DNA of 33,629 bases from a virus (IMGVR_UViG_3300047316_000272:1-33629), one strand, 5' to 3'. Positions 1 through 24,640 are shown, numbered from the stretch's first letter. The notes: generated from the letters alone by a model not told the origin. Program-made: numbers and translations.

Positions 1-1781
1 CCGACGGGCCAGCCGAACTGCTGCAAGGACTGTGCCTGCGCCCCCAACATCCCGAACAATTTATCCGCCGAACCAATCTGCATCGTGTCATTCAAGACAA
101 GCGTGCCGCCCGCAAAATCCATCGCTACGCTTGCAGGAATCGTCAGATAGCTGTTTACGACGAATCCATTTGTTGAACCCGGGATGTAAAGCAAACTTCC
201 ACCAGTCGTATGACTCGCGGCCGCTTGAATGGCCGGCGTGTTGTCGAAGAGAATCGTCGCGTTTGTCACTGATGTCGAGGCTGCGTTAGCGAGAGCTAGA
301 GTCGTCGTGCCTGCGCCAGAGACGATGGTTGTCACAAGAGGGTCAGCTTGTCCACTCACCGGAGGCGTTGTTGGGATGAAATAGGGAGCAACGAATCCGC
401 CCATCATAGTCGCGCCGAAGTCGTCCCAGGAGGCGTCGGCTATGGTTGTCTGAGGAGTCGTTACACCGAGGAGTGTAAGCGAGCCGCCCGTGCGGCCGTA
501 GATGTAGTAAGCGAAGGCTCCTGTAACTGGAGTCCACGTCAAGTGGTTGCAATTGAACCAGTGAGCAGTCCCGCCGCCTGCGCTGTTCGCAAGGGCACCG
601 TCGGCAATATCGTTTCCGGTCGCATAGGTGAAGTGAGTTGTATCAGGGACACTTGCCACGACGAACCAGCCACCAAAGTAGAGATTGTCGCTCGTGACCG
701 TTGAGGTGATATAGACCATCGCTCCAACAGAGAGTCCGTGTGGACTCGAAGTCGTCGCGGTGACGATGTTCGTTGCTCGTGTGAATCCTGAGATAGAGAC
801 AGACTGCGCGCCGAGGGACGCGGGGCCAGTTGTGGTGCTGCCGATGGAGCCAGCGGGGGTGAAGCCACCAGCGGCGTCTCGGGCGAGGACTTGATAGTTG
901 TATGTCGTTGCGCCAACAGGTGCGTTGACTACAAATCCAGTCCTCGTTCCTGCCGCAGCGATGCTGCCTGTGACAGTGGGTGCTCCGGGAGTGGAGATTG
1001 ATGTCGCAGGACCAGCTCCGAAGACAGCGACGGGGTCATTGTTGATAAAACTGCTCGCAGACGACAACATCGCAGAAGTCGATGACGAACTAATCGTCGC
1101 GGTCACGCCGGGAGCACAGGGAGCCACACTCGCCGCGCACGCCGACCTTGCGCCATAGGCTCGAATATCCACCCAAGGATTCGGCCCCTTACGAATCGTG
1201 TCGCCGTTGATGGTAGACGTACTCCCGATGGTCTGTGTGCCAGTGACGCTTGAATTCCCACTGACAGTCTGATTCCCAGTTACGCCGTGATTCTCATTGA
1301 CAGTGAAGGTTCCAGAGCCCTCAGTCGCGTTGCAATTCCGGAATCCACCAGCGCCATTGTTGCACTGGACGGAATCTGTAGGCGTCCCCGGAGAGCCCCC
1401 GCCTCCGCCACCAGTTCCAGTCCCGCCATTCTCAATCCACTTTGACTGACTTGCATCGAAGACGAAGGCGATGCCGGTGTTCGCGACGCAGGTGAAGTCT
1501 GCGCCTCCAGCGATCGAGATGTTCGCATTGTTCTGAATCGTCGTGTTCGAATCCCCGCAGAGGATTGCAATCTGTTGTGTATCGGTGCCGTTGAGAAAGT
1601 TCGTCACCGTCGTCGGACTGCCGTTATTCGTCTTGAAGACGTTCCCGTTCGCAACCGAGGGTGTCGCGCCCGAGACAACAATGATTGACTTATTGAGAAT
1701 CTGGTCGGACGAGATGCGACCGTGCTGCGTCTGAGCAGCGAGCGCGAGGGGGAGCAATAGGGATATAAGAAGTCTCTTCAT
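1..1781 (-). CDS. Signal-peptide-bearing beta-helix tailspike-like protein (3' end beyond window)
   Basis: The minus frame stays open from an ATG at 1781 to the window edge (593 codons), so the C-terminus is missing. The first 17 or so residues form a Sec signal peptide: MKRLL, a hydrophobic stretch, then ALAAQT. A Gly-rich linker (about residues 103-113) and a QCNNGAGGF motif of the kind seen in fibres follow. A DIRAYGA motif and, near residues 525-575, an FDNTPAIQAA stretch leading to GGSLLYIPG and LTIPASVAMDF match the first coils of the pectate-lyase-like right-handed beta-helix used by tailspikes and depolymerases. The likely role is binding or cleaving a surface polysaccharide. The catalytic part, if any, lies outside the window. 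The start overlaps the upstream fibre stop by one base (TGATG). At least seven cysteines are visible. A signal peptide is unexpected for a virion protein. The fold call is fairly sure; the enzymatic role is inference. Confidence 0.8.
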   Translation of the reverse strand, partial: MKRLLISLLLPLALAAQTQHGRISSDQILNKSIIVVSGATPSVANGNVFKTNNGSPTTVTNFLNGTDTQQIAILCGDSNTTIQNNANISIAGGADFTCVANTGIAFVFDASQSKWIENGGTGTGGGGGGSPGTPTDSVQCNNGAGGFRNCNATEGSGTFTVNENHGVTGNQTVSGNSSVTGTQTIGSTSTINGDTIRKGPNPWVDIRAYGARSACAASVAPCAPGVTATISSSSTSAMLSSASSFINNDPVAVFGAGPATSISTPGAPTVTGSIAAAGTRTGFVVNAPVGATTYNYQVLARDAAGGFTPAGSIGSTTTGPASLGAQSVSISGFTRATNIVTATTSSPHGLSVGAMVYITSTVTSDNLYFGGWFVVASVPDTTHFTYATGNDIADGALANSAGGGTAHWFNCNHLTWTPVTGAFAYYIYGRTGGSLTLLGVTTPQTTIADASWDDFGATMMGGFVAPYFIPTTPPVSGQADPLVTTIVSGAGTTTLALANAASTSVTNATILFDNTPAIQAAASHTTGGSLLYIPGSTNGFVVNSYLTIPASVAMDFAGGTLVLNDTMQIGSADKLFGMLGAQAQSLQQFGWPV

Positions 1782-3832
1782 CACGGATGCACTCCGATGC
1801 AGTCTATTTCACCGTAAGTGGATACGACGGCTTGTGAGCCTTGGCCGTTTGAAATTGTGACGACCACGCTGCCATTGGCCTTTGACGCCCCAGCGATGTA
1901 GGGAGCGCCAGTAATCGTCCCGGTTCCGGTGCAGGAGACGGAGTAGGCGGTATCGGCGAAGCTGGAGGGCCAGGTGACAGTGGTGTTGCATGTTGCTCCT
2001 GCCGTAGAAGCCGTGCTGCACACACTCGCGTTGACGGCGGCTTTTGTGATTAACGTCTCCACGCATCCGCTCGTTGTCGCCCCGCCGTTTGCGTCGGTAC
2101 AGAGAGGAGCAGCGGTGCCGCTTACTGTTCCGCTCGTCAATAGTTTTGTGTCTGTTCCTTGCAGTCCATTTCCTGTTGGAGTCCCATTGATAATCGGCGT
2201 TGTAATTGTGGGCGAAGAAATCGTAGGACTTGTTAAAGTCTTATTTGTAAGCGTCTGCGTTGCATTGTCTACAACAAGGTTACCCGTAATCGGGTTTGGT
2301 ATTGTGAGCGTCCCGCTAGAACCCGAGGACGGATTCTGCAATGCAAAAATCTCTGCTGCGCCAGCACTCGTGAAAAGACCAAAATTCAATGGGGATTGCG
2401 GTCCCATTGTAGTCGAACCGGATGTTCCAGTGGGATGCGACCAGATATAGTTCATAAATGGATTGGCACCAGTACCGCCAGAGATAGAAAACTGAAAATT
2501 ATCGGGAACAGAAGCCGAGCCATTCCAGATACGCGATTGCCATACACCGACGCCAGGAAATTGCGTTGTGGTGTTTGTAGCCGCGACGCCTGTGTTAAAA
2601 TTATACACAACCCCCCATTTTGCTGTGGAACCACCGAAGCCATCAGTTACGCCTAACGCTGCTTGACTACCAAGATTAGGCATCGTTCCGTTACCAGCCA
2701 AGACAACATTTAAGCCAGTAACATATGCAGGACTCCCAATAGGTACTATATCGAACTCTCCGGCAGTCAGATTCGCATTGCTGCCGCCGATTTCATCTTG
2801 CACAATCGGGTTGATGCCCCATACTGCCGATCCCGACGTACCACGCGCTACACCCGAAAAATAGCCGCCGACGCCATTACAAGTCGTTCTGGAAGAAGAG
2901 TTACAGGTGGAATCGACAAATCCTGACACCGCATCAATTTGATGCGATGCTGTTGCTCCACTGGGAATGGTTACGCACCCATAGAGTGTTTCAAGTGCAG
3001 GCTGTTGCTGCCCATCGCCGCTTGGCGAACAGTTATTCAAAATAGAACCCATATAATTATGCGTCGAGCCAGTAAAGTCCCCAACGTTATTTGTGGTGTT
3101 GAAACTATTGATGTTGAGTGCGCCATTCCAAGTGAGCGATTGAATCCCCGTCTGCGGACTCGTCGCATTGCTGATAATCGCATTCGGCTGATTCGTCGCG
3201 ATGCTGATGGAGCCACCGTGGCAGACAAGCGCGCGTCCGGACTGCGCCGCGACCCAGGTGATCGAGACATTGTTGACATCTGTGATTGTCACATGGTCTG
3301 GGAAGATGACGTTTCCGTTGAGGTCAGTCGTCGTGACGAAGACATTGAGGTCGTTTTCGTTGTGGTTGACCGCCCAGGTCGTCGCGGGTGAGGATTGCAG
3401 GAATGTGAAGCAGGACGTGATGATTTGATTCGGGCCGATGACCGGGGTCACGTTCAGCGGCGTCTCGGTGTCGAGATTGAAGGGGGTATGATTGATGAGA
3501 TAGTTTGCACTGGACTGTTGGATGCCCCCGATAAGAAAATCTATCCGCCAAAATGTTCCTGTCGGCGACAATAAATCATTCCGGACGAGACTGAAACTAA
3601 ATGAGCCGTCTGCGGCAGGAGCAATACAAAACTCAGTCTGACGTACAATAGTGCCTGTTCCGGTGACGCGAGGCAGATTTGGTTTATAATTCTGTAGCGT
3701 CATGCAGACATTGGCATTTGTGGCCGCGCCACCGGAAGGAAAAAGCATGTGTCCAGTCACATTTGCGGTTTGAGAAAAGGCTGGCAACGCCGACAAAAGT
3801 AATATCACTAAAATTAAGAGTTTACGCAGCAT
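1781..3832 (-). CDS. Signal-peptide-bearing tail fibre-like protein
   Basis: This 683-residue protein starts at ATG 3832, preceded by GAGAG at suitable spacing. An ATG at 3847 would add five residues and has a poorer ribosome site. MLRKLLIL, a leucine-rich core and SALPAFSQT form a textbook Sec signal peptide. The mature N-terminal 110 residues look like a beta-sandwich (VTGHMLFPSGG onward). The middle is Gly/Ser/Thr/Asn-rich with little charge. Near residues 530-560 is the TLTNKTLTSPTISSPTI repeat typical of phage fibres. The C-terminal 60 residues (WPSSFADTAYSVSCTG onward) form a compact beta-rich tip with cysteines. About 14 cysteines are present, which suits an oxidising compartment. The start lies inside the end of the HNH gene and the stop overlaps the spike start by one base. 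Base composition shifts along the gene: roughly 2140-3090 and 3500-3830 are AT-richer. A fibre role is likely; why it is exported is unknown. Confidence 0.75.
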   Translation of the reverse strand: MLRKLLILVILLLSALPAFSQTANVTGHMLFPSGGAATNANVCMTLQNYKPNLPRVTGTGTIVRQTEFCIAPAADGSFSFSLVRNDLLSPTGTFWRIDFLIGGIQQSSANYLINHTPFNLDTETPLNVTPVIGPNQIITSCFTFLQSSPATTWAVNHNENDLNVFVTTTDLNGNVIFPDHVTITDVNNVSITWVAAQSGRALVCHGGSISIATNQPNAIISNATSPQTGIQSLTWNGALNINSFNTTNNVGDFTGSTHNYMGSILNNCSPSGDGQQQPALETLYGCVTIPSGATASHQIDAVSGFVDSTCNSSSRTTCNGVGGYFSGVARGTSGSAVWGINPIVQDEIGGSNANLTAGEFDIVPIGSPAYVTGLNVVLAGNGTMPNLGSQAALGVTDGFGGSTAKWGVVYNFNTGVAATNTTTQFPGVGVWQSRIWNGSASVPDNFQFSISGGTGANPFMNYIWSHPTGTSGSTTMGPQSPLNFGLFTSAGAAEIFALQNPSSGSSGTLTIPNPITGNLVVDNATQTLTNKTLTSPTISSPTITTPIINGTPTGNGLQGTDTKLLTSGTVSGTAAPLCTDANGGATTSGCVETLITKAAVNASVCSTASTAGATCNTTVTWPSSFADTAYSVSCTGTGTITGAPYIAGASKANGSVVVTISNGQGSQAVVSTYGEIDCIGVHP

Positions 3833-4334
3833 GGTCTCTCGCATCATAATCAGAGCGACTTTCTAAATAAAAAGCAGCGCGACGAATACTTACTGGATTG
3901 TCCAAAAATAACCCAATTGCCATGTTGCATCGGTTGCAAAGAATTCCGCGAACCTTTTTGGTCTTGTGGTCATGATCGACGACAAACGGAGCAGACTTTC
4001 CTGTATTTTTTGGTGAACTGTCCCCACAAATTGCACATTTATTTCCTTGTACTTTCAGCATTTCCAAAAAGAATTCTTCTGTGATTCCGTGGTTGGCTTT
4101 GAGATACCAATCACGAAAAGTTTTTGATTTCGTCTTTGTCATCTTTCGCAGATACGTCTTATTCTTGTCGTATTTTGCATTCTGTCTACTATTCACTAAA
4201 TCTCGGTGCTCTCGTTGCCAAGAAGCTGACTTGCGACCCAAACAATTTTTGCATTGTGATTGCAAGCCGTCCTTTCTATTTCTGTGGCGACTAAACGTAC
4301 TTTCTTTTCCGCAAGCGTGACAAAACTTAATCAC
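3822..4334 (-). CDS. Endonuclease VII-type HNH endonuclease (copy 1)
   Basis: The 170-residue protein has two CxxC pairs at its N-terminus (C5/C8, C28/C31). The C-terminal half carries the recombination endonuclease VII signature: C100-x2-C103, the catalytic DHDH at 120-123, and C133-x2-C136 in LCNRCNMAIG. Known relatives are phage T4 endonuclease VII (a Holliday-junction resolvase) and many free-standing phage HNH nucleases that act as homing enzymes. Start is GTG at 4334, which overlaps the upstream stop as GTGA and has AAGGAG just upstream, so it is well coupled. The DNA is clearly AT-richer than the gene upstream, which suggests recent insertion. It sits between an ejection-protein gene and a fibre gene, far from replication or packaging genes. 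A homing role is therefore more likely than resolution, but sequence alone does not decide. Confidence 0.85.
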   Translation of the reverse strand: MIKFCHACGKESTFSRHRNRKDGLQSQCKNCLGRKSASWQREHRDLVNSRQNAKYDKNKTYLRKMTKTKSKTFRDWYLKANHGITEEFFLEMLKVQGNKCAICGDSSPKNTGKSAPFVVDHDHKTKKVRGILCNRCNMAIGLFLDNPVSIRRAAFYLESRSDYDARDHAA

Positions 4335-6502
4335 TGATTTCTCCTTTCCGGAGTCCCAGCGGGAGGTCCGGAATTCTGCTTCCTGCGGCCTTGGAGGAGT
4401 TCGCGCATCCGGATCTTGGCTGCGGCCTGCTCGGCGGGGGTGCCGCGTTCGATTTGAGTCTCAAGAGCTTGGAGTTCGCGAGGATGCTCTTGGAGGAAGA
4501 AACGGAGCGCGCTGGTCTCTTGGGGAGTGAGATTCGGAGCTGGCCCCGCATTTGATGTTACAGGAGGAGTCGGGGGAGGGGCAAGTTGGGATGTAACCTC
4601 AGTGCTATTTGGGGGAATGCCGCGGAACATACTTTCTTTGATAAAAGACGGGAGCATGTCCCAAAGCGGGCTAGGTATTTGCGTTGGCCCTTGAAAGTTT
4701 GAGCCGGGTCGTCCAGGAGTCGTCAGCCCCGGATTCGGATTCTGAGCCGCAGGGCCGCGAGTGGGAACGATGCCCGGACGTGCTTCGCCTGTCCACATCG
4801 GATTCGGCGTCTCGACGGGGAAGCCGGCAGGAGGTAGACCGCCGACTTGCGGCACTGGTGGCCCCGGAGGCGGCGGGACGAATGGCGCGGGTGGCCCGGG
4901 GAGGAGGCCAGCGTAGTTACCCTCGCCCGGGTGCTCAGTCGGGAGGACGTTGACGCGGAGGCCGGCGCGACCACGTCCGCCGAGTTGATTTGGAGCTTGA
5001 GGCTGTCCGGTTGCTTCGACTGCGCCGACGGCGTTCGGCGGTGGAACGTTCGTCGGGGGTGCGAGAGGAGGACCGATTGGCTGTGGGTAGCGCGTGGAGA
5101 CAAAGGAAGGTTTCTCGCCACCAGTCTGGAGTCCCTCGGCGATGCCGACATCCGTGGGCTTCCCGCTCCATAGCGGTCTCCCAGCGGCGATGTCCGATGC
5201 GGCCTCTGCAATCCCACCGGGGAGACCGAATAGCTTGAACGGATTGATTGAAAGATTGCTTGCAACCTTCCCAAATCCATAGCGCTGAGGCTTCTCAGAC
5301 AGCGTGTTCGTCCCGGAGACCTGACGTTCAATCCCTTTGACTCCGCCGAAGGCATTCCGGATGGCAGTGAAGTTAATTCCCTCACGGCTCATGCGGTCGT
5401 CGAGGAGGTTGCTGATATGGGCCTGTTCGTCAGCTAGATTCGCGGGATTCTTCCCCTGTTGGAGAATTGTCTGAAGGGTCGCGGGATCCTTGTCGCGGAT
5501 GCCTTGAAGCTGTGCGGAAATCTCACGCCTGCGAGCCTCAAGACCATTGTAGGTCGTTGGACCATCTGGGCCTTGGACGGGTTCGTCGCCGAAGCGGTTG
5601 AATCCCTGCTGCGCCGGCTGCCAGATTTCATCCTTCGCGCCGGGGATGGCGTTCTGGAGGTCTTCGACGGAGCTGATGCCTTGGCCGCCGAGATAGGGGC
5701 GCGCGGTGGCGAGGTCTTCTTGGAAGGCTTGACGCTTCCCCCAGCCGGGGTCAAGGACGGATTGGATGGCGGCGTTCTGCTCGGGGACGGGGGGACGTAG
5801 GAGCGCGCGGGATGCGGGGACGGCAGTCGCACCTCCAAGCATCTCACCTGCGCCTTGGAGTGCATTCCCGACGTTCTCGGGGGTCGCTCCAGAGGTCGCG
5901 AGTCCGTAGCCACCTTGGATGGTCTTCGCGCCGCCGTGGCCGATGCCGTAGGCTGCAGCGGCCGGGAGGACGACTTCAGGTGCGAGGGCGGTCGCGGCGG
6001 TTAATCCAACGCCTGCGGGTGTCGTCAGTCCAGCAGCGGTGCGGAGGCCAGCGGCGCCGAATTCACCCGCTACCTGTCCAGCAGACATCCCCGGATCGGG
6101 CTGCCCCGAAGCGAGCGCGGCGCGGCGGTTGTAGTCAGCGGCGTCACTTTGGGCTTCGAGCCCGCGCGCACCCTTGCGTAGTTCGTCGCCGATCGCAAGT
6201 GGAAGGATAGCCTTCCGCGCGATTCCCTTGATCGATCCCGGTGCGGGAAGGTCGCTGTCTTCTGGCAGGTTGCCAGTGCGGGCGTTGTAGATGGGGGAGC
6301 CCTTGTGAGTCTGGAAGGCACCGGGTTGGGCGGCGGGGCTTGTATTCGTAGGCGCGGGAGTACCCGACTTCGCCAGCATCCCATCGATAATCTGGTTCCG
6401 CTGGTCAGCAGGCATCGTCTTGGGGAAGCCCAAGTGACCCAACTGTGGATGGTCAATGAAATCCAACTGAGTCGGGTCAAGTTGTTGTGGAGAGGTAGCC
6501 AT
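4331..6502 (-). CDS. Large Gly/Ala/Pro-rich putative internal virion (ejection) protein
   Basis: I do not recognise a named family for this 723-residue protein. The N-terminus (MATSPQQLDPTQLDFIDHP) is soluble. About residues 130-200 form an Ala/Gly-rich hydrophobic segment that could insert in or cross a membrane. Residues 220-400 look helical and charged. A Pro-rich, Gly-rich low-complexity stretch fills about 470-640. The last 60 residues form a charged helix (LTPQETSALRFFLQEHP, then AAAKIRMREL). Its place after the connector genes and before the fibres, together with two other Ala/Gln-rich proteins, fits the ejection proteins of podoviruses, which form the trans-envelope channel. That role is inferred from position and composition. 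The stop overlaps the HNH start by four bases. Confidence 0.6.
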   Translation of the reverse strand: MATSPQQLDPTQLDFIDHPQLGHLGFPKTMPADQRNQIIDGMLAKSGTPAPTNTSPAAQPGAFQTHKGSPIYNARTGNLPEDSDLPAPGSIKGIARKAILPLAIGDELRKGARGLEAQSDAADYNRRAALASGQPDPGMSAGQVAGEFGAAGLRTAAGLTTPAGVGLTAATALAPEVVLPAAAAYGIGHGGAKTIQGGYGLATSGATPENVGNALQGAGEMLGGATAVPASRALLRPPVPEQNAAIQSVLDPGWGKRQAFQEDLATARPYLGGQGISSVEDLQNAIPGAKDEIWQPAQQGFNRFGDEPVQGPDGPTTYNGLEARRREISAQLQGIRDKDPATLQTILQQGKNPANLADEQAHISNLLDDRMSREGINFTAIRNAFGGVKGIERQVSGTNTLSEKPQRYGFGKVASNLSINPFKLFGLPGGIAEAASDIAAGRPLWSGKPTDVGIAEGLQTGGEKPSFVSTRYPQPIGPPLAPPTNVPPPNAVGAVEATGQPQAPNQLGGRGRAGLRVNVLPTEHPGEGNYAGLLPGPPAPFVPPPPGPPVPQVGGLPPAGFPVETPNPMWTGEARPGIVPTRGPAAQNPNPGLTTPGRPGSNFQGPTQIPSPLWDMLPSFIKESMFRGIPPNSTEVTSQLAPPPTPPVTSNAGPAPNLTPQETSALRFFLQEHPRELQALETQIERGTPAEQAAAKIRMRELLQGRRKQNSGPPAGTPERRNQ

Positions 6503-6507
6503 TTGGT

Positions 6508-7971
6508 CTATTCAAAACGGAGAGTCTTGGGGTTCCACTTGCCGCCTGCGTTCGCGTTCGCTTTTGTAGGAGGCTTCAGGCCAGAGCGGGCTGGATTGGT
6601 ACTACCGCGACCCGTGAACAACTGCGGATAGCTCGAAACGATGTCATTGTAGATGGATTCAAAAGAGCTGAGTTTGTTTGAAAGCTGCGTCGAGTTCCCC
6701 GCGGCGAAGTCTTGTTCATTTGGCATCTCGGCTTCGAGGAGGTTGATGCGGTAGTCGGAGCCAACGCCCCCTGAAGTTAGCACATTGCGAAGCGAGAGGA
6801 CTCCTTGGCGAAGGTTGCGGTCGGTGTCTACAAGCGCGCGCGCCGGGGCGGATAGATGAGAGAGCGCGATGCCTTCGAGTCCGCGACCGATGGCTGTCTT
6901 CCCGGGAGTGAGGCTCGCGACGATGGCCGCGCGGTCTACGGTGGAGAGATTGTCTACGGCTGGGATTGCGGCGCGGAAGTTCTGGAGGTTCTGGTCGAGT
7001 TCGGCAAAGGTGCCGCGTTTTTGGGCGACGGAGGCGGCGCCGGATTGGTTGCCGGCGAGGGCGGGTTGGCCGCCGGGTAGGACTGCGGGGCCGCGAGCGA
7101 TGGTTCCGTAGACTTCTGTGCCATCCGGGCCGAGCATCGGCAGTGGGCGATTCTCGCCATACGCTCGACCGCGCTCCGCAGCCAGCGCGACAGCATTCTG
7201 CTGCTTCTTCGCCGCAGCCTCCGCGAGCCAGTTTTGGTAGTCGGTGCGGAATTGAGGATCACGGGTGCCTTGTGGATAGCTTGCTGGATTTGGAAGTGGC
7301 TTCCCAGCCGCGCCGACATCCATTGCACTGACGGTTCCGGTGCCGGGGAGAAGCGGGACATTTGGCTTCGGAGGCCCGGGTTGGGTGCCGATGGGAGCGC
7401 CATTTTTGCCGTATTCATAGACGAGTCCGGTGACGGGGTCTTGGACGTGGAAGCCGATGGATTGCGGCATCATCGCCGCGCGCTGGGTTGTCGGAGGCGC
7501 AGCGGGAGGGAGGGTCGCGGGAAGCGCACCGTTGTTCTGTTCGAAATTCTTGAAAACGTCCTGTTGCGCGGCATAGGCTGGATTCGGAAGAGTGACCATC
7601 CGTGGAGATGTGACGCCCTTTAGGTCTGTGTCGGCGATGCCGATTTGGCCGTTGTCAGCGGGGTATGTAGTCGGCTTCTCAGCGCGTGAGAGAGCAAGTG
7701 CCTGCTCAGCCTTCGCTTCAGGCGTCTGATAATTCTCAAGATTCTTCTGCTCCAATTGGCGCTGGAGGTCTTGAGACTGAAGTTGCGATTGTTCAAGCGC
7801 CTGTCTACCTTCCAACGCCTGCTGCTGCAATCCAAGCTGCGCGCGCTGTTGCTGAAGCTCCGCTGGGCCATAATTCCCACCGACCGCAGCGAGTTGCGCG
7901 GCGATCCCAGGCGCGGCGGCGAGTAGCTGCCGCCAGATGGACGGATTCTGTGTTGGAGATGCGGGTGTCAT
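6508..7971 (-). CDS. Putative internal virion protein with N-terminal coiled coil
   Basis: The 487-residue protein begins with a short Ala-rich segment (LLAAAPGIAAQLAAVGG). A strongly Gln/Leu/Glu-rich coiled coil follows (about residues 37-95), then a Pro-rich middle (about 120-250). The C-terminal domain is helical (about 310-465), with ALVDTDRNLRQGVLSLRNVL and a GSDYRINLLEAEMPN motif. The tail SSYPQLFTGRG is a pattern I associate with phage internal virion proteins. Only five bases separate its stop from the next start, and three bases of upstream sequence include the neighbour's stop. With the flanking genes it forms a three-gene set of likely ejection proteins. Function is inferred from position and composition, not from a catalytic motif. 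Confidence 0.6.
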   Translation of the reverse strand: MTPASPTQNPSIWRQLLAAAPGIAAQLAAVGGNYGPAELQQQRAQLGLQQQALEGRQALEQSQLQSQDLQRQLEQKNLENYQTPEAKAEQALALSRAEKPTTYPADNGQIGIADTDLKGVTSPRMVTLPNPAYAAQQDVFKNFEQNNGALPATLPPAAPPTTQRAAMMPQSIGFHVQDPVTGLVYEYGKNGAPIGTQPGPPKPNVPLLPGTGTVSAMDVGAAGKPLPNPASYPQGTRDPQFRTDYQNWLAEAAAKKQQNAVALAAERGRAYGENRPLPMLGPDGTEVYGTIARGPAVLPGGQPALAGNQSGAASVAQKRGTFAELDQNLQNFRAAIPAVDNLSTVDRAAIVASLTPGKTAIGRGLEGIALSHLSAPARALVDTDRNLRQGVLSLRNVLTSGGVGSDYRINLLEAEMPNEQDFAAGNSTQLSNKLSSFESIYNDIVSSYPQLFTGRGSTNPARSGLKPPTKANANAGGKWNPKTLRFE

Positions 7972-7972
7972 G

Positions 7973-8746
7973 TTAACCCTTGTACGTCATGCCAGCATCG
8001 GAGACGTTATAGTTATAGTTACTGGGGCCATAGGTGCCGAGTTTGGCGAAGGGATTTGAGAGGCCAGTCTTCGGGAGGCCATAGGCTGCAAGACTCGCGC
8101 CTCCGGTGAAGGGTGCGGCTGCAAGAGGAGCAATCGCTGCGACGCCACCTGCGATGTCACCCAGCGTCGATCCCATCTTATTCATTGCCTGCGCGCCCTG
8201 GAGTCCAGTCCCGGCTGCGGCCGTCTGACCACTCATATCCTGACCAGAGAGGCCCATTCGAGCATTGAGTGCCTTGTCCTCAAGATTCTGCGTATTCACC
8301 TGCGCGTTGCGGAAGGCTCCAGTGCCAGCTTGTGCCTGCCCCTGGTTGATTGCATTCTGCTCCGCGAGGCCGAAGCCGGAAGGTGCGTTGCCAAATCCGC
8401 GCGCTCCCATCGTGGCGAATGCGGTCTGACGCATCCCGTTGTAAGTGCGGTTGATATTGTCGTTGTCGGCGGCGAGTTGAGCAGCAGCGGCAGGACTGAG
8501 TTGCCCCGGCTGCCCCTGTGTCTCAAAAGTCCCGATTGTCTTATCTGCGGCGGCCTGCTCCGCAGCCTGTTTCGCGGCGAGAGCCTTCTCTTGAGCAATC
8601 TCATCATTCGTCAGCGTCTTCGCCTGCTCACGCCCCTTCTTACACTCCCAGAGCGGCCCCTCGTAGACGCACCATCTTGTCTCGACGAGCATCAGTCCGT
8701 CATCTGTCATCTGGTACGTTGGATTGGTGTAAATAAAGGTTGACAT
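7973..8746 (-). CDS. Ala/Gln-rich putative internal virion protein
   Basis: The 257-residue protein has a short beta-like N-terminus (MSTFIYTNPTYQMTDDGLML) containing a Cys pair, W-C-V-Y-E-G-P-L-W-E-C. A long Ala/Gln helix spans about residues 40-110. A Gly-rich, amphipathic to hydrophobic segment at about 165-225 (GGVAAIAPLAAAPFTGG) could associate with membrane. The end is Asn/Tyr-rich. It is the first of three consecutive proteins with this kind of composition between the connector and the fibres, which is where podoviruses such as P22 place ejection proteins. GAGAGAC lies just upstream of the ATG. I see no motif that assigns a more precise role. Confidence 0.6.
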   Translation of the reverse strand: MSTFIYTNPTYQMTDDGLMLVETRWCVYEGPLWECKKGREQAKTLTNDEIAQEKALAAKQAAEQAAADKTIGTFETQGQPGQLSPAAAAQLAADNDNINRTYNGMRQTAFATMGARGFGNAPSGFGLAEQNAINQGQAQAGTGAFRNAQVNTQNLEDKALNARMGLSGQDMSGQTAAAGTGLQGAQAMNKMGSTLGDIAGGVAAIAPLAAAPFTGGASLAAYGLPKTGLSNPFAKLGTYGPSNYNYNVSDAGMTYKG

Positions 8747-9694: not shown

Positions 9695-11850
9695 AGCGCC
9701 GGATCCTCAATCTCATCTGCATCAATCTTCACGCCGCGGAGGACGCCGTTGACAGGGCCGGCTGCGACGGCGAATTCAACGAGAACACGCTGGCAAGTGC
9801 CACCAGTGTCGGATTTCAACGTCCCGCTGAAGCGATTCGATTTCGTCGCGGGGCCGGGGACGGACTTTGCGCCGATGACTCGCTGAGTCATTGGGATTAC
9901 AATGCCGGTTCCGGGATTATCTGGGTCGGCGGGGTCGAGCCAAACGGTCACGTCAATCTCCATGCTCGGGTCGGACTTCTCGTACTGGACGCCCTTGACG
10001 ACGAAGATGCTATCAGGCTTCTGGAAGTCGGTGTAGACTCGATAGATGCCAAGAGGGTAGGTTGCATCCGCTGGGACTGGGAATGTATTCGTGAGGTCAT
10101 CGATGACTTGAAGCGTCAGAGTCGTCCCTGAGACTGTGGCACCAAAAAGAACGCGCTCACCGGGGGAGACTTCGAAGACGCCGATTGCCGTATACCCCTG
10201 TTGAAGCTCAAACCATCCCTTCGTCTCGAAATCGAAGACCCAGGTTGCATATGTCGCGTCTTGTCTCTTATAAGTTACAACGAGCCAGTTGCGGCGACCG
10301 TAGTTGTAGAAGACAGTCTGGACATTCGCGAAGTCCGCGCCAGAAATTTGCTCAAACTCCTTGCGCTTCGGGCGAGAGAGTTCGACGAGGGCGGTTGTCT
10401 GTTCGCCGCCGTACTGTGTCGCGAAGTAGGCGGTCTGAGAGGGGTACATGTACAGCTTCTTGTCGTAACTAAGGAAGATGAGACCAAAGGGAGTTGAGAT
10501 GGCTGCGCGGCGTCCGGCCATCCCGACGCTGAAGGCGTTGACTTGAGAGAACTGGAAGGTCTCAAGCGAGGTGCCGAAGAATGGGATTGTGTTGATCTCG
10601 GTGCCAAAGTAGACGGCGTCGCCGTGAGCCTTGATGCAAGTGATGTGCGCCGACTGGTCGGGCATGGAGGTTTCGTTCACTTGAGCTGGGGAGACAGTGT
10701 TTGGGTCCGCGCCGGGGACGGATTCATAGGGCGAGCCGGCTTGCTCCGCGAGAATCTCCTCGAAGCCGCTGTAGCTGAAGAAATTTGGAAATCCTTCGAC
10801 GCGGCTGAATGCGCGCCGCTGGTAGACATCCGCCACGCGAGTAGGATTTGGGGGATCGTTTAGGAGTGGGGTCGTGACGCTGGAGAAGAGAGAACCCGTC
10901 GCGCCAATCATCGGCGAGGTGTCGGTGTAGGAGGTTGTGCTCTTGTCAACTGTCGCGAGGAAGTTGCAGACAGAATCCGTCTCGCTGGAGGAAGCGTAGA
11001 CGTTCCAGCCAGTCGCCCGGAAAGGAAGAATATTGTATTCAATGTTTGTGTTAGTAATCGAAGGCGCGCTGTCAATCGTGCAGTGCGTGGCGTCGGCGAC
11101 TGCGGTGATGGTAGCAAAGCCAGCAGAATCAAGAGGGCCGATTTTCATGCCTACGTGGCGTTGGTTGAAAGCAGTCCCGATGCCGACGATTTGATTGCTG
11201 GAGAGAGCGCGGGAGATTGTACCTGGTTCTTGGCGTACCTTGACGCTGCCGGAGGCGTTGATGGGTCCGGATTGGGCGCTCAGGGGACTCGATGAGGATT
11301 GATGTGCCTCCCCTGAACCAAAACCATCATCATCATACGTGATTCGATAGAGCCGGTAGACGAGGACGAGAGCGGGCGTTCCGGCTCCGGCAGTCGCAGT
11401 GATATTGGGTGGATTCACAGGAATCGGCAGTCCCGCAATCGTGTAGTTGATTCCGTTGAAAATCCAGCTCGTCGTCCCATCGCTAATGTGCATGACGTTC
11501 GCGATGTTCCAGAAGACGGGGACATCGGAGAGCGTCAAGTCCTTCGTCCACGGCCCCGACACAGCATTCGTCGTGTGATAGAGCGCGGACTTCGTTGCGA
11601 TGAAGTAGTGAATCGTCAAGGTGCCGAGGCTGTTGCGCTTGAATTGCCAGAAGGCGACAACAGGGTCAGATGAGCCTGCGCCGATGGTCGCTGTGACGAC
11701 TACGGGGCGCTCGCGGCCCATCTCGCCGGAGATGGAAGGAATGAGCGATTGCAGCTTCCGCGCGTCCTGCGGATTCGGAGCGCCCGGAGAGGTAAAGTCA
11801 TTCTCGCCAGTGACGAGGTTGTACTTTGTGAATTCGACCGGGTCATTCAT
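9691..11850 (-). CDS. Tail hub / stabilisation-like protein (podovirus type)
   Basis: The 719-residue, strand-rich protein lies directly after the head-tail adaptor block. It has features of the large propeller-like hub or nozzle proteins of podoviruses (P22 gp10, T7 gp12 class). These include a first-person-sized N-terminal strand region with QFKRNSLGTLTIHYFIAT, a VYRLYRITYDDDGFGSG stretch, a fibronectin-like ATGWNVYASSS repeat and RVADVYQRRAFSRVEG. The later part shows repeated blade-like strands: SYDKKLYMYPSQT, YGRRNWLVVTY and ATWVFDFETKGWF. It would close the short tail and hold the spike proteins. The start overlaps the histidine phosphatase stop by one base and the stop overlaps the FN3-like start by four. 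Assignment rests on size, order and strand pattern, not on a clear signature. Confidence 0.65.
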   Translation of the reverse strand: MNDPVEFTKYNLVTGENDFTSPGAPNPQDARKLQSLIPSISGEMGRERPVVVTATIGAGSSDPVVAFWQFKRNSLGTLTIHYFIATKSALYHTTNAVSGPWTKDLTLSDVPVFWNIANVMHISDGTTSWIFNGINYTIAGLPIPVNPPNITATAGAGTPALVLVYRLYRITYDDDGFGSGEAHQSSSSPLSAQSGPINASGSVKVRQEPGTISRALSSNQIVGIGTAFNQRHVGMKIGPLDSAGFATITAVADATHCTIDSAPSITNTNIEYNILPFRATGWNVYASSSETDSVCNFLATVDKSTTSYTDTSPMIGATGSLFSSVTTPLLNDPPNPTRVADVYQRRAFSRVEGFPNFFSYSGFEEILAEQAGSPYESVPGADPNTVSPAQVNETSMPDQSAHITCIKAHGDAVYFGTEINTIPFFGTSLETFQFSQVNAFSVGMAGRRAAISTPFGLIFLSYDKKLYMYPSQTAYFATQYGGEQTTALVELSRPKRKEFEQISGADFANVQTVFYNYGRRNWLVVTYKRQDATYATWVFDFETKGWFELQQGYTAIGVFEVSPGERVLFGATVSGTTLTLQVIDDLTNTFPVPADATYPLGIYRVYTDFQKPDSIFVVKGVQYEKSDPSMEIDVTVWLDPADPDNPGTGIVIPMTQRVIGAKSVPGPATKSNRFSGTLKSDTGGTCQRVLVEFAVAAGPVNGVLRGVKIDADEIEDPAL

Positions 11851-12578
11851 CAGCTGCCGCCGACATGAGAAAATGGCTTTGCGGATGGAACATCCGATTC
11901 CTTGATAGCCGGTCCTTCTCGTAATACGTCAAATGTGACTCCGTCTTTGGAAATCGTCATCTTTGCCACGCCGCTTGGGTGAACCTTAACTTTTTTACCG
12001 TAAGTGTCTGAAGTCACTTTGAATCCGTTGGAGTGGCAACAGACTAAACTGGGCATGTCATGCGGCGTGTTTGCGATGACGTATGCAAGGAATGAAAGCC
12101 AGCGGCGTCTGGATTCATTGAGCGTCTCCGCATCCTCACCCTTCGGTAATTCATCGGGATTCTCAATATAGTATTGCTTCTCCTTCAGATTCTCGTCATT
12201 CTTAGGCTTCCCCGAGAGCTTCGAGCCAATACCCCATGTGCGAGCGCCATTGTTAACGATGATGTCATCCTTAGTTTGACTCAAATGATGCACTAGCTTC
12301 GCGGTGTGCATCGTGCGCGTCAGGTCATCACTGAAGATTCTGCCGAATTTTATCTTTGATAGCGTGGTATCAACGGCAGAATGCACATCAGCGACTCCTT
12401 TTGGGGTCAAATCCTCGTTATTCCACCCGCAGAAGCGATTCTCTCGGTCTGATGGAGTCTGACCATGACGAAAGAAATAGATGACAGTCGTCTCTTTTGG
12501 ACTCAAGGATGAACGTTGTTTTGGCTTCTCCGCGCTATGCGCTCCCCCTAGAGAATTAAATAGGCGATGCTTTGCCAT
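11850..12578 (-). CDS. Histidine phosphatase (phosphoglycerate mutase-like superfamily)
   Basis: The 242-residue protein carries the complete catalytic set of the histidine phosphatase superfamily. R37-H38-G39 holds the phosphorylated histidine. GWNNEDLTPKG follows. The second arginine is R88 in FSDDLTRTMHTA, and the second histidine is H182 in LVCCHSNG. Relatives include cofactor-dependent phosphoglycerate mutases, SixA-type protein phosphatases and small-molecule phosphatases. The substrate cannot be read from the sequence. The first 30 residues are a charged, low-complexity extension not typical of the family. It fits exactly between adaptor and hub genes: the ATG directly follows the adaptor TAG, with AAGGGG upstream, and its stop overlaps the hub start by one base. 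Its DNA is AT-richer than both neighbours, which suggests later acquisition. A metabolic phosphatase in a connector operon is unusual. Confidence 0.88.
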   Translation of the reverse strand: MAKHRLFNSLGGAHSAEKPKQRSSLSPKETTVIYFFRHGQTPSDRENRFCGWNNEDLTPKGVADVHSAVDTTLSKIKFGRIFSDDLTRTMHTAKLVHHLSQTKDDIIVNNGARTWGIGSKLSGKPKNDENLKEKQYYIENPDELPKGEDAETLNESRRRWLSFLAYVIANTPHDMPSLVCCHSNGFKVTSDTYGKKVKVHPSGVAKMTISKDGVTFDVLREGPAIKESDVPSAKPFSHVGGS

Positions 12579-14398: not shown

Positions 14399-15682
14399 CT
14401 AGTCGGCGAAGACGCCCGAGGTGACTGTGGCGCTGATACCGTCCGAGCGGAAATGGCAATTCCCGCGGTCGGCATAGGCATTCAGCATCATGTACCACAC
14501 CGCCTCGTAGTCGGTCTTATCGGCTACAGGACGGAGGACGGTAGACGCGCCTCCTGCGGATGCCCAGTCTTCCCACTGGCCTTCGTTGAGGTAGATGACG
14601 AAGAGATGGTCCGAGACGACACCGATGAGGGTGCCATAGGGAGCATCCTTGTCAATCGCCCATTGGATCCCGCCGAAGGTCATCGTCTCGCCGAAGTCGG
14701 CACCGGCGTCCGGGTTGCGGAGGTCCGCACCCTGATAACGACGGTCGGCTTGGGAGAGTTTCAGGTATTCCCGGCGGATGGAGAAGTGAGAGAAGAAGGA
14801 ATCAACCCGTTCTCCAGAAATTTCTTCCTGGTTGTCCACGTAGCGATAGAGCAGGTCTTCAGAGAGACTGCCTGCGCTGGTGTAGACCGAGGAGAAATAG
14901 AAGGAGTTCGCGGTGTTGCTGCGATCGACGCCGAAGGGGCTGTTGACATAGGTCGTCTGGTCAACAATCCCGAGTAGCCCCATCATTTCCTTGTTGAAGC
15001 TGGAGCCGTTGGTGCTGCCGGAGACGGTGCCGATGGAGATGAGGTCGCCGGTGTTCGAGGTCAGCGTGGACGCGAGCGTGATGCTGTTGTTCGCGTTGTT
15101 GACCGAGGACACCTGTTGGACGCGGACGTTGGTGCCGTCCGTGGCCGTGAAGGCGACGTACATGTTGGGTTTGATGAAACGGGTCGGGTTGGTCGTGCCA
15201 GCGACGCCACCGGGACTGTTGACAGTCTGAGTGACGGAGCCAGTGCCGGAGGCCGCGAGGCCGAGGGTGCCTGCACCGAAACCGAAGAGTTGACGGTTCA
15301 GTTGGCGCTCGACATCCTTTCCGACGCCTTCCATTTCCCGAGTCATAGCCGGAGCCGCCGCGCCCTTCTCGGACTCGGAAGCGTTAATGACCTCGGCAGT
15401 GATGCCGAAGCGCGCTTTCAGGTCGCGGATGGGGATGGACAGCTTGGCGTATTGTTGGTTGCCAGCGACGCCGAGGAATCCGGATTCGCCGGTGGACTTG
15501 ACGCCGGAGTAGTTACGACCGGAGTGGAGGTGAACAACGACTTCGTTACCTTGCCACTGTACGTCGTCCTTGTGCTGCTTCCGGAATTTGGTGACAATGT
15601 TGGAATTGTTCACCTGCTCCCGGATTTTGGGCTCGTAGACGGAGCGCATGGCTGCCGAATAGAGCGAGGTTGTAAGGGACAT
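14399..15682 (-). CDS. Major capsid protein (HK97-like fold expected)
   Basis: The 427-residue protein follows the scaffold gene directly and has the character of a podovirus or siphovirus major capsid protein. The N-terminal arm is helical (TTSLYSAAMRSVYEPKIREQ). FRKQHKDDVQWQGNEVVVHL forms the E-loop-like strands. A long spine-like helix follows (NASESEKGAAAPAMTREMEG, then GKDVERQLNRQLFG), then strand-rich A- and P-domain parts. It has a single cysteine, unlike the exported proteins in this window. TCCTAGG-type spacing separates it from scaffold, with AGGAGA before the ATG. A scaffold upstream and a hairpin downstream are typical of the most highly expressed late gene. The fold is inferred from size, order and helix/strand pattern. 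Confidence 0.8.
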   Translation of the reverse strand: MSLTTSLYSAAMRSVYEPKIREQVNNSNIVTKFRKQHKDDVQWQGNEVVVHLHSGRNYSGVKSTGESGFLGVAGNQQYAKLSIPIRDLKARFGITAEVINASESEKGAAAPAMTREMEGVGKDVERQLNRQLFGFGAGTLGLAASGTGSVTQTVNSPGGVAGTTNPTRFIKPNMYVAFTATDGTNVRVQQVSSVNNANNSITLASTLTSNTGDLISIGTVSGSTNGSSFNKEMMGLLGIVDQTTYVNSPFGVDRSNTANSFYFSSVYTSAGSLSEDLLYRYVDNQEEISGERVDSFFSHFSIRREYLKLSQADRRYQGADLRNPDAGADFGETMTFGGIQWAIDKDAPYGTLIGVVSDHLFVIYLNEGQWEDWASAGGASTVLRPVADKTDYEAVWYMMLNAYADRGNCHFRSDGISATVTSGVFAD

Positions 15683-17332: not shown

Positions 17333-17704
17333 TCAGGCGACTTTGTGTCTGTGCTTAGTCAAATAACGGATTGCGGAGTACAGCATTCCTACATCATCCT
17401 TAAACATACCTAGACCACTATTGCAGTTAATACAAAGAATATCCCTAAATTGACCCGTTGCGTGGTCGTGGTCGATAGCGAATCGCGCATTTTCCTCTGG
17501 CGTTCGCTGACAGATAGCACACGGTTTCGTTTTACGAAGAACTAGAATCTTCTCAGCTTCGGCGCGAGAAAATCCATAGCTCTCAATGTGCTTAACTGGG
17601 TCGGCGTCCTTTCGTAATTTGCTTCTACACTTTCGACACCAACGTTTGTGGCCGCGATACTCAGCCATCGGCTTTTCAATTTTGCATTTTGAGCAGCGTC
17701 TCAT
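17333..17704 (-). CDS. Endonuclease VII-type HNH endonuclease (copy 2)
   Basis: The 123-residue protein has the same architecture as the copy at the left end but is shorter and diverged. Two N-terminal zinc knuckles (C4/C7, C23/C26) are followed by a short helical linker. The nuclease core is C62-x2-C65, then D78-H79-D80-H81 in IDHDHATG, then C91-x2-C94 in CINCNSGLG. It is linked to the glycosyltransferase by a four-base ATGA overlap and is followed by two hairpins. It lies in an AT-rich patch that continues into the 3' part of the glycosyltransferase gene. A homing or junction-cleaving activity is expected from the family; the target is unknown. Confidence 0.85.
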   Translation of the reverse strand: MRRCSKCKIEKPMAEYRGHKRWCRKCRSKLRKDADPVKHIESYGFSRAEAEKILVLRKTKPCAICQRTPEENARFAIDHDHATGQFRDILCINCNSGLGMFKDDVGMLYSAIRYLTKHRHKVA

Positions 17705-18654
17705 CTTGCAATCACAAGCCTTCTTGGAGTTTCGTACTCGACATCCATCATGGGAAACATATGAGCAAGTAACTTTGCGTACCGTGCTGTAAGAACCTTT
17801 TTGGATTCTTCGTCTGGAACATCGACAAATATCTTACCGTCTTCTTGTCGAGAGAACCGCGTCGGCTGAAACCACTTCACATATTCGGTGCTGACCAATT
17901 TACCTTCGGGAACAGCCCGCATCTTCAAAAGCTGCATGGCTGCATCCCAAGGACTTGGATCTGGGTTCCAGTCTCGAAGTAAAATCTCTTCAACGGCAAT
18001 GTGTTTTTGTTCTCGCGTAAGTAAATGAGAATGAAAAAAATACGTGTTAAGTGCCTCCGCCTCGCGCTTGACTGCCTTTAACAAATCGACAAATGTGAAC
18101 AACTTGAGTCCGTAGCGGGCGATGTTGCGGCTGAGAGTGTAGTCGTCGATGAGATGGGAAGGCTTGATGCCATTCCGCTGCTCGTGGACAGTGGGGTAGA
18201 TATTCTCGCAGGCTTGCTCCAGCGTCAGGTCTTCGAGCGGATGCCAGAGATCGAGGCACCAGTTAGAGGCGACGGTGAACCAGTTCCCGCTACCGATGTG
18301 GCGCGCGTCGCGGCGGAAGTACTCGTCGTAGCGCCAGCGGTTGCCGGCCATGTCGGAGCCCCAGTGGAGGACTTCGTTCTTTGAGAGATGGTCAGTGGGG
18401 TCGAACATCTCGATATGGTTGACAATTGCGTCTGCGTCGAGATAGAGGTTCCAATCGTAGTCGCGACCTAGCTGGTGGATTTGTAATTTTTCGTACACCG
18501 GTGGGAAATCCGGATACTTGCGCTTCGTGATAACCTTGAACTCCGCGCCAATCTTATGCGCCCACTTCTCCATCGCTGGAAAAGTCAACGCGGTGATTTC
18601 CGGCGCGTAGTTGTCTACACACAACGTCCAAAGTGCCTTCGTTTCCTGCTTCAT
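17701..18654 (-). CDS. Glycosyltransferase, GT-A fold
   Basis: The 317-residue protein starts with a strand-helix region of a nucleotide-sugar-binding fold (KALWTLCVDNYAPEITA, WAHKIGAEFKVITK). It reaches the metal- and nucleotide-sugar-binding DxD motif in LYLDADAIV (D73, D75). Later blocks GNWFTVASNWCLDLW and HLIDDYTLSRNIARYGLKL with an HSH motif near 210 fit the acceptor half of GT8- or DUF-type phage glycosyltransferases. No membrane segment is seen, so it works in the cytoplasm. Possible acceptors are a virion protein, phage DNA or a host envelope precursor. Its neighbour upstream in the operon is a secreted SGNH hydrolase module. The 5' part is GC-rich, but from about 18060 to the stop the gene becomes AT-rich, suggesting a recombination joint. 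Confidence 0.8.
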   Translation of the reverse strand: MKQETKALWTLCVDNYAPEITALTFPAMEKWAHKIGAEFKVITKRKYPDFPPVYEKLQIHQLGRDYDWNLYLDADAIVNHIEMFDPTDHLSKNEVLHWGSDMAGNRWRYDEYFRRDARHIGSGNWFTVASNWCLDLWHPLEDLTLEQACENIYPTVHEQRNGIKPSHLIDDYTLSRNIARYGLKLFTFVDLLKAVKREAEALNTYFFHSHLLTREQKHIAVEEILLRDWNPDPSPWDAAMQLLKMRAVPEGKLVSTEYVKWFQPTRFSRQEDGKIFVDVPDEESKKVLTARYAKLLAHMFPMMDVEYETPRRLVIAR

Positions 18655-19371: not shown

Positions 19372-21381
19372 TCATTGGATTACTTTCCAAGTACATCCCC
19401 CCGCCGCCTGACTCACTAATTGAGATTCCAGTATTCGGACTTGGTTTTGTGCTATTGCTAGGGTTGCGGCACCATCAAATGTCTCGGCGCTCCAGGGGGT
19501 ATTGGAGCCAGTCTGCGCGGGAAATGCGACCAGCGTAGAACCGACAGTATTGATGTTCTTTATGAAGATTTGCTGACCCGTGTATCCTTGGCATGTTTGC
19601 AGCGTGAAGTTGCCTGCTCCAAAGTTGAGGATAACGTGCTGGTCCGCGTCCTGCTGTTCTGGGGATGAGCAAGAACCCGCTATAGTTTGCGCCCCTAGCC
19701 CCGTTGTGAGGTTGTAACCTATTAACGTTGTGGCGTTGGAACCGCTTAGGGCGAAGTAGGTCTGGTTGTATCCCGTTGGGGTAATCCCCGTGCAGGTACA
19801 AAGCGTTCCCGGCAGACAGGTATTGCTGCCCGCGAAGGTGATTGTCACCGTATTGGTCGCTTCGGTGGCTCCCGTGGTGGCGATGGCAGCTGCAGCGGCG
19901 GAAGAATAGGTCTTCGCAGTTGTAAAATCGCGGTTTCCATAAAAGCGATTGTAAGCAAGCTGTTCGATAGGCGTGATTACGTTATCCACGGCATTCTGTG
20001 TCGGATGGATAGCATCAACCTGGAAGAACGTCGTATTCGCGCTTGCGCTGTCAGCGCCAAGCTGCGTAGTCCCGCCCATGTCGATAAAGAAATCGGCGGA
20101 CGTGTTCCAGGTGGTTCGCAGGAGGGGATTCAGGTTGTCTTTATTGGTGTCCTGCCCCGTTCGGCTAATCATCGAGGTAAGGGCGCACTTGAAACCCGCC
20201 GTTCGCGCGTTCTTACACGCTTGGAAATTCAGGGAAGCAGTCAGAGCTGCCGTGGATCCACCAGCAACGTCGTTCGTGCCAGCCCATTCAAGCAAAGTAT
20301 TTCTTGCGGCCGTCGGCTGCAGATATTCATAAGCACGGGCAAAACTCCCGCTCACAATACCCGCCATTGTGCGGCTACCGGAGCTTGAGTTGATGGACGT
20401 TAATCCGTTTGTGTTGCTAAGTTGTACGAGAGAAGTCCAACAGGTTGAGACGCCCTTGCAGGAGGTGATTGAGTCGCCGTCGAAAACCACGGAGTCGTTG
20501 GTTGATGCCGCAACTCGAAGTAGCGGAGGTACCTGCCGTGAAGCCATCACGCTCGCCATATAATTGTGATCGGCCAGTAATTCGGCGGCGCTCAGGATTC
20601 TGTTGTAGAAAACAGCGTAATAGATTTGGCCTGTGAAGTACGACTGCACCCCGAACCCTTCGTTCACGGCACCGCCGCCGAGCAGGTAAAATCCTTGTGT
20701 CTGAAGGCCGCATTTATTCCCCGTGCTTGCGTCTACGTCAGTAGACACTACTCCATTGAATACAACCTGGTCGGAGCCTCCGGAGTTGCAGATAAATCCA
20801 ACAGAGCCGATGCCGTTCATCCCTCCAGCACTGCATCGACCGATAACGCCGTTCCCAATGAGGAAGGTTCCCTCTACTCCTGGGACGGACATGGTGCAAG
20901 ATGAGGCTCCTCCCGTGCTGAGAGCCGAAAAGATGCCGAATGAATGAGTAGAGGTACCTCCTCCATTGCCTTGTAAATAGGCTTCGAAGGCATTGAACGG
21001 CGGGTGGGCATTGACGTACATCAGGACGGTCACTGCGCTGTTAAGAGCCGCTGGAAGTTGAATTGCGCCGTTCCCCGTGAAGTTACACCCGCCAGAACCA
21101 GAGATGATGGTTGGGGCCGTTCCCTCAGTTGCGGTGGCGTTGTTTCCACTGCCTGAATAATCAACCAATGCCCCACAGGTCTCAGTCGGAAGCATTCGAT
21201 ATTCAGCTATGAGGCCATTGGAAACTGGAATGGCGGTCAATCCCGGCGTGCCCGGTGTGGATGAGAATGTAGTCCCCCCGCCTGAGCCGCCAACCGTCGG
21301 ACCATACCCTCCCGGCGGCGTCTGCGCGAACGCAAGGGTGCCGATGAGAGACAGCAATACTGCCAGAAGAATTCTCTTCAT
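19372..21381 (-). CDS. Signal-peptide-bearing LamG plus SGNH/GDSL hydrolase
   Basis: Start is ATG 21381; a GTG three codons earlier overlaps the upstream gene. MKRILLAVLLSLIGTLAFAQT is a Sec signal peptide. In residue numbers from the GTG, about 58-280 form a LamG/concanavalin-like domain: GLIAEYRM, DYSGSGNNATATEGT, then FYNRILSAAEL near its end. Residues about 300-485 form an SGNH/GDSL domain with block I GDS (S307 nucleophile), block III GTND (N373) and block V DAIHP (D459, H462). This is a full set for an esterase or deacetylase acting on sugars. The C-terminal 180 residues are a beta-rich fibre-like domain. About 16 cysteines suggest an oxidising environment. It is likely an exported or virion-bound esterase that removes acetyl groups from a surface polysaccharide. 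It sits between portal and capsid genes, not with the fibres. Confidence 0.82.
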   Translation of the reverse strand: MKRILLAVLLSLIGTLAFAQTPPGGYGPTVGGSGGGTTFSSTPGTPGLTAIPVSNGLIAEYRMLPTETCGALVDYSGSGNNATATEGTAPTIISGSGGCNFTGNGAIQLPAALNSAVTVLMYVNAHPPFNAFEAYLQGNGGGTSTHSFGIFSALSTGGASSCTMSVPGVEGTFLIGNGVIGRCSAGGMNGIGSVGFICNSGGSDQVVFNGVVSTDVDASTGNKCGLQTQGFYLLGGGAVNEGFGVQSYFTGQIYYAVFYNRILSAAELLADHNYMASVMASRQVPPLLRVAASTNDSVVFDGDSITSCKGVSTCWTSLVQLSNTNGLTSINSSSGSRTMAGIVSGSFARAYEYLQPTAARNTLLEWAGTNDVAGGSTAALTASLNFQACKNARTAGFKCALTSMISRTGQDTNKDNLNPLLRTTWNTSADFFIDMGGTTQLGADSASANTTFFQVDAIHPTQNAVDNVITPIEQLAYNRFYGNRDFTTAKTYSSAAAAAIATTGATEATNTVTITFAGSNTCLPGTLCTCTGITPTGYNQTYFALSGSNATTLIGYNLTTGLGAQTIAGSCSSPEQQDADQHVILNFGAGNFTLQTCQGYTGQQIFIKNINTVGSTLVAFPAQTGSNTPWSAETFDGAATLAIAQNQVRILESQLVSQAAGGCTWKVIQ

Positions 21382-24356: not shown

Positions 24357-24640
24357 CAGTTAGCTTTCTGAGGTTCGCCTTCGACGGCCTTTGCAATTTC
24401 TTCAATCATGCCGGAGGCTTCGGGGTCTTCAAATTGCTCGACGAGGTAACGTTCGATTTCCTTGGATGCGAGGACTTCAGCGCGGACGCTGGGAGTAGAG
24501 GGTTCGAAGCCGCGAGAGGCTGCGAGTTGGTCGAGAGCGATGTCCGCGCGCCGCTGCTGCTCGTCGCGCTCGGCGATGACGCGCTTCAGCGTCTCTTCAA
24601 GAAACTCGGCGTAGCGGCGGGAGACGAAGGGGAGTCGCAT
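24356..24640 (-). CDS. Small helical protein between terminase and portal
   Basis: The 94-residue product is helical and charged: YAEFLEETLKRVIAERDEQQRRADIALDQLAASRGF forms a likely coiled coil. An EVLASKEIERYLVEQF segment and an acidic end follow. One-base overlaps link it to both TerL and portal. Small proteins in this position are common in phages and may bridge packaging proteins; no family is recognised. Confidence 0.65.
   Translation of the reverse strand: MRLPFVSRRYAEFLEETLKRVIAERDEQQRRADIALDQLAASRGFEPSTPSVRAEVLASKEIERYLVEQFEDPEASGMIEEIAKAVEGEPQKAN

Follow-up and report, generated by a model that had tools for sequence, protein, structure and literature searches.

The stretch analyzed here (the window) is the IMG/VR virus record IMGVR_UViG_3300047316_000272:1-33629, 33,629 bases long with a GC content of 0.56. 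Its minus strand carries the podovirus-like late operon of a tailed phage, with genes for terminase (24640-26247), portal (21990-24356), an SGNH/GDSL-like protein (19372..21381), scaffold, major capsid protein (14399..15682), tail proteins, ejection-like proteins, fibre and spike, in this order. The major capsid protein has no signal peptide; it served as late-operon marker and as query for finding relatives. Three cysteine-poor proteins without a signal are encoded at 4331..8746 (minus strand), directly upstream of an endonuclease-VII-like (EndoVII) gene, the fibre and the spike, and we infer from their position and composition that they are ejection proteins. The fibre gene (1781..3832, minus strand) encodes 683 aa, with a predicted signal peptide at the N-terminus and a C-terminal tip that is common to signal-less tail proteins. 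The pectate-lyase-type spike gene (3..1781, minus strand) runs past the contig edge at its 3' end. The SGNH-like gene lies between portal and scaffold. Two endonuclease-VII-like genes, possibly homing endonucleases, are inserted among the structural genes (3822-4334 and 17333-17704), the former also with a weak Lar-like N-terminus. A histidine-phosphatase gene (phosphoglycerate-mutase-like, RHGQT motif, PHROG 12933 match) lies among the tail genes at 11850-12578, and 17701-18654 in the late operon reads as glycosyltransferase-like, its sole Pfam match being a weak one to DnaA_N.

The fibre, spike and SGNH-like proteins each begin with Lys/Arg, followed by a leucine-rich core and an A/S-terminated cleavage site. 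In the fibre, the predicted signal peptide MLRKLLILVILLLSALPAFS (3773..3832, minus strand, ATG at 3832) would be cut before QTANV (MLRKLLILVILLLSALPAFS^QTANVTG). In the spike, MKRLLISLLLPLALAA (1734..1781, minus strand, ATG at 1781) would be cut before QTQHG (MKRLLISLLLPLALAA^QTQHGRI) or one residue earlier, and in the SGNH-like protein MKRILLAVLLSLIGTLAFA (21325..21381, minus strand, ATG at 21381) would be cut before a conserved QTPPGGYGP (MKRILLAVLLSLIGTLAFA^QTPPGG). GAGAG lies upstream of the fibre ATG, the spike ATG overlaps the fibre stop in TGATG, and AGGTGGG precedes the SGNH ATG. We scored N-termini with a signal-peptide caller built on our own criteria (n-region charge, a 9-residue hydrophobic core, small residues at -1 and -3, and no acidic residue). 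Among 42 annotated E. coli CDS, sorted by us into Sec and non-Sec proteins, the caller found 9 of 12 Sec proteins and flagged 0 of the 30 others. Within the window it flagged 3 of 30 non-overlapping genes, exactly the fibre, spike and SGNH genes, for which the first-pass annotation had claimed signal-type N-termini; that claim is confirmed, and the open reading frames lie where it had placed them. Across 27 phage loci, 33 of 317 genes were flagged (chance expectation by residue shuffling: 1.09 for the 33 flagged genes and 5 over all 317), and 26 of these 33 are fibre or spike genes or lie inside fibre clusters; the other 7 comprise a start inside the terminase gene and ORFs that are small or unrelated. 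By this caller, the Sec/signal peptidase I (SPase I) pattern (positive n-region, hydrophobic core, small -1/-3 residues) is present in all three of these window proteins and in 26 cluster proteins.

Signals of this kind and the same gene order, which the earlier annotation had suggested looking for in related phages, both occur in the nearest relative, G001 (IMGVR_UViG_3300020129_000255), whose major capsid protein is 84% identical to that of the window. G001 has the identical order of ejection-type proteins, EndoVII, fibre and spike, and carries four signal-bearing genes, one being the counterpart by position of the window's SGNH gene and the others encoding the fibre, a spike of 1527 residues and a further protein of 662 residues. 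Signal-bearing fibre clusters were found elsewhere as well. Specifically, the 41.8 kb contig G013 has six adjacent signal-bearing genes directly after a 1597-residue Cys-free protein, locus L024 has three, L020 and L027 have two each, and L008, L009, L011 and L023 have one each. The complete circular podovirus genome MW202554.1 (capsid protein 35% identical to the window's) carries a run of four, located between portal and scaffold. A fifth protein of this genome matches tail-collar proteins (best PHROG E-value 3e-35); preceded by AGGAGGG, it begins MIVLVLLFLLLSISSADAG^T, a signal-like start but with an n-region without Lys or Arg. The fibre clusters sit in the late operon either directly after the ejection proteins or between portal and scaffold. 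We saw no signal-less fibre candidate in the window, G001, G013 or the relatives read almost whole, where contigs may be incomplete and MW202554.1 is complete. The fibre-type genes of a prophage-like relative in G170:C8 carry no signal, and INPHARED gave no isolate relative with a known host, its matches being short shared domains or uncultured records. The three genes had originally been viewed as one system in one operon; they do lie together in the window's late operon, but predicted signal-bearing fibre genes are a recurring feature of several phage lineages and are not confined to it. Beside these clusters, two of the signal-fibre phages, G001 (L013:11804-13170) and G010 (L070:3212-5773), have a lipoprotein-like small gene and a papain-family (C1) cysteine protease after the fibre cluster, in G010 followed by a cell-wall hydrolase. 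Two small signal-bearing ORFs of G013 (L071:204-1228) lie just upstream of the scaffold gene, which is the position of the SGNH gene in the window.

The modules of these proteins, encoded in the late operon, are those of tailed-phage fibre and tailspike proteins. The fibre contains a WAVNHN-type beta domain common to many phage proteins and an LTNKTLTSPTI repeat. A model of its N-terminal part (mean pLDDT 73) predicts a helix at residues 2-13 followed by beta strands. Among the viral structures that match this model are collagen-repeat, Stf-repeat, tropism-determinant and tail-fibre proteins; PDB entries match it weakly. The spike carries the motif KGPNPWVDIRAYGA, which we take to be a pectate-lyase-type entry motif; its model is weak (mean pLDDT 64.7), with marginal matches to phage endosialidases and poor PDB matches. 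The SGNH label of 19372-21381 rests on a sub-threshold Pfam match to Lipase_GDSL_2 (18.6 bits against a curated cut-off of 32.9, E 0.0029). In its G001 counterpart the signal and QTPPGGYGP are kept and the body is different, and a search for the QTPPGGYGP motif returned G001 only. Both the fibre and the SGNH gene combine, relative to G001, a constant N-terminal part with a variable body. Such exchange of bodies behind a constant N-terminus is the pattern of virion-bound receptor-binding proteins, whose N-termini stay constant because their binding partner does; a linker retained through common ancestry could give a similar picture. Enzyme-type folds also occur among the signal-bearing proteins, namely GH28/pectate lyase in MW202554.1, SGNH (sub-threshold) in the window and a beta-helix in L024. 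Pfam and PHROG scans of the fibre, spike and SGNH proteins returned no peptidoglycan-lytic domain. The earlier cysteine counts were right (14 in the fibre, 7 in the visible part of the spike, 0 in the scaffold and 1 in the major capsid protein), and the SGNH protein has 17. Their reading as a sign of export into an oxidising compartment did not hold up: cysteines of the fibre tip are largely retained in signal-less homologues, and in spike-type ORFs Cys makes up about 1 to 1.6% of residues whether or not a signal is present. Because signal-less homologues are rich in cysteine too, we rejected the cysteines as evidence of oxidising folding.

To assess cleavage, we compared the window proteins with their homologues. 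Between the window and G001, the three signal segments are identical at 4/20, 6/21 and 9/23 positions, whereas the first 12 residues past the predicted cut are identical at 9/12, 7/12 and 10/12; conservation between these orthologues therefore begins at the predicted cut. Homologous spike bodies occur without a signal in L007, L010, L017, L021 and L022, and the C-terminus of the fibre occurs without a signal, behind another N-terminal domain, in L021 and L026. In one matched pair, the signal-less L021 protein, M-ADIYFANVSAGANDG, begins where the G001 protein, ..AIPAVAS^DIYVAQSSAGGNTG, would be cut. Small residues before the predicted cut and Gln after it are repeated across lineages, and some cleavage sites are suboptimal, such as that of the SGNH counterpart in G001. 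The signal-less bodies, one of them starting at the predicted cut, and the divergence of the signals next to conserved post-cut residues point to real, cleaved Sec signals. Since signal-less homologous spike bodies exist in related phages, export is not needed for the fold. Among the late proteins of T7, P22, crAss001, B40-8 and phi38:1 that we examined, no fibre or spike has a signal-type start; the caller flagged two proteins in all from these five phages, the P22 spanin and a lysis-type protein of crAss001.

Evidence on the host comes from metagenome-assembled genomes (MAGs). The only genome_contigs match was a signal-bearing spike in an Acidobacteria (gp2) MAG. On this contig (QHYO01000331.1, L069:11119-15789), the phage-type spike with its signal stands beside host-like genes and has an N gap inside the spike gene; it could be a prophage remnant, a captured gene or a chimeric scaffold. 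In a second Acidobacteriota genome, G034, one phage-type contig has, following its tail proteins, a gene whose product begins MKRLVILLALLCLPLYA^ATTYVTV. Other phage regions in Acidobacteriota bins, one of them with a capsid relative, have no signals; host phylum by itself does not explain the trait. An alignment of the fibre against 386 Acidobacteriota genomes gave an empty result, uninformative about the host. Gln at +1 was common in both sets of an acidobacterial cleavage-site comparison that covered this one phylum for Gln, and is only suggestive of an acidobacterial style of cleavage site. Acidobacteriota are plausible hosts on the MAG evidence alone, though not established ones.

We propose, with a probability of roughly 0.5, that the receptor-binding fibres and spikes of these phages are exported, cleaved and folded in the periplasm and join the virions at or after lysis. 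The fibres and spikes would be synthesised as precursors bearing Sec signal peptides, the host Sec channel would translocate each chain, and signal peptidase I would cut after A-x-A/S, usually before Gln. The mature proteins would then fold and assemble in the periplasm, with head and tail assembly remaining cytoplasmic as usual. Once lysis mixes the two compartments, or later, the fibres would dock onto heads or tails via their constant mature N-terminal parts; before that, they would have no access to targets in the cytoplasm and could also act on the envelope of the cell that made them. The parts of this proposal differ in strength. Sec export together with cleavage by SPase I is very probable from the N-termini. 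Homology, gene order and modular N-termini, along with the lack of any alternative fibre candidate, somewhat favour membership of the exported fibres in the virion. The timing we infer: if export and virion membership both hold and heads and tails are cytoplasmic, attachment would have to occur at or after lysis. P22 tailspikes reportedly join finished heads in vitro, a precedent for late attachment. Against the proposal, homologous spike bodies in related phages do without a signal, as do the capsid relative in the Acidobacteriota bin and the prophage-like relative; the collar fibre of MW202554.1 has its uncharged n-region; and docking after lysis would be unusual for a whole fibre set. A broader form of the proposal, more tentative and somewhat doubtful, would extend it to several tailed-phage lineages, with hosts possibly among Acidobacteriota and other soil and water diderms: these would export all their fibres and spikes via Sec and finish their virions at lysis, outside the cytoplasm.

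The main rival to virion fibres is that the proteins are exported and never enter virions, acting instead as periplasmic or released polysaccharide lyases, esterases or adhesins derived from fibre modules, which would loosen the matrix, release progeny or exclude superinfection by masking receptors. Enzymes of the polysaccharide lyase and esterase type are commonly secreted by bacteria, and both the signal peptides and the enzyme-type folds described above would suit such a role. We nevertheless regard it as rather unlikely. The bodies and tips are common to signal-less tail proteins in the same gene order, and the window, G001 and G013 would be left without a virion fibre candidate, within the limits of incomplete contigs. 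Moreover, a constant N-terminus with a swapped body points to a constant partner, and the tail-collar fibre of MW202554.1 also has a signal-like start. Of the initial reading of the window, the Sec-type signals on three late genes stand and export is likely, and a role confined to the surface or the secreted fraction is less likely than thought.

Other explanations concern the fate of the signal itself. An uncleaved signal anchor, which would tether the fibres to the periplasmic side of the inner membrane or direct their synthesis to the membrane as the site of virion completion, would fit the strong hydrophobic cores and the suboptimal cleavage sites, but is improbable given the recurrent small -1/-3 residues, the frequent Gln that follows, the conservation from the predicted cut onward and the matched L021 protein that starts at the predicted cut residue. 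Partial export, in which inefficient signals let a cytoplasmic share join virions normally while an exported share acts on the host envelope, would explain why signals and virion modules occur in one protein, and nothing in the sequences favours it directly. It is quite improbable: strong cores combined with clean cleavage sites suggest that export is efficient, and an uncleaved signal would occupy the docking end of the fibre. Least probable is that the N-termini are not signals and reflect starts that are hydrophobic by chance, misassigned start codons or a hydrophobic helix that serves virion docking. Here, the evidence for signals is wholly computational, and homologues without these N-termini are ordinary fibre-type proteins. 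We rejected chance starts on a flag frequency far above the shuffling expectation and on the clean E. coli negative set, misplaced start codons are unlikely given Shine-Dalgarno-like sequences or stop-start overlaps at several starts, and the signal grammar is kept despite divergence. Export, cleavage and virion membership together remain our preferred reading.

In textbook phage assembly, particles are built in the cytoplasm and fibres are not exported. T7 gp17, P22 gp9 and crAss001 gp22-gp26 resemble the window fibres in late-operon position, fibre or beta-helix modules and a constant N-terminus with a variable body, but lack a signal-type N-terminus, and the fibres and tailspikes of these three phages are taken to be incorporated into virions while still in the cytoplasm. 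Virion proteins with Sec signal peptides that are added outside the cytoplasm are familiar from M13 (pIII and pVIII), and assembly of filamentous phages takes place at the membrane, with extrusion of the particles; in contrast, the window phage is tailed, with terminase, portal, scaffold and capsid. Some carbohydrate-active auxiliary metabolic gene products of soil viruses are presumably secreted and have polysaccharide-active folds in common with the proteins described here; unlike those genes, the signal-bearing genes sit in late-operon fibre clusters, with bodies common to signal-less tail proteins. For Sec export of a late protein in a tailed phage, the closest precedent documented is Lys44, the secreted endolysin of Oenococcus phage fOg44, together with SAR endolysins; these proteins use host Sec export without a holin (PMC6116005). 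These are lysis enzymes acting on peptidoglycan, whereas the window proteins have fibre and spike modules and no detected lytic domain. A literature search of open-licence papers found no description of signal peptides on tail fibres, in line with the first-pass remark that no described system of this kind was known to it, and two-compartment virion assembly appears not to have been described for tailed phages, as far as we found. Host range is set by receptor-binding proteins, which are taken to be assembled in the cytoplasm. If whole fibre sets are exported, assembly timing, the folding compartment, the control of self-adsorption and superinfection exclusion would need another model, and the phages affected would be those of abundant, poorly cultured bacteria. 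Caution may also be due before carbohydrate enzymes with a signal are labelled auxiliary metabolic genes on viral contigs, as some may be receptor-binding proteins.

Elsewhere in the window, the plus strand encodes a DNA methyltransferase (PHROG 111) at 29217-29729 and an anti-restriction-like protein (PHROGs 25535 and 2059) at 30489-31040, and a protein with a long WDAARAAARDAA-type repeat at 32828-33526 matches PHROG 18326 (function unknown).
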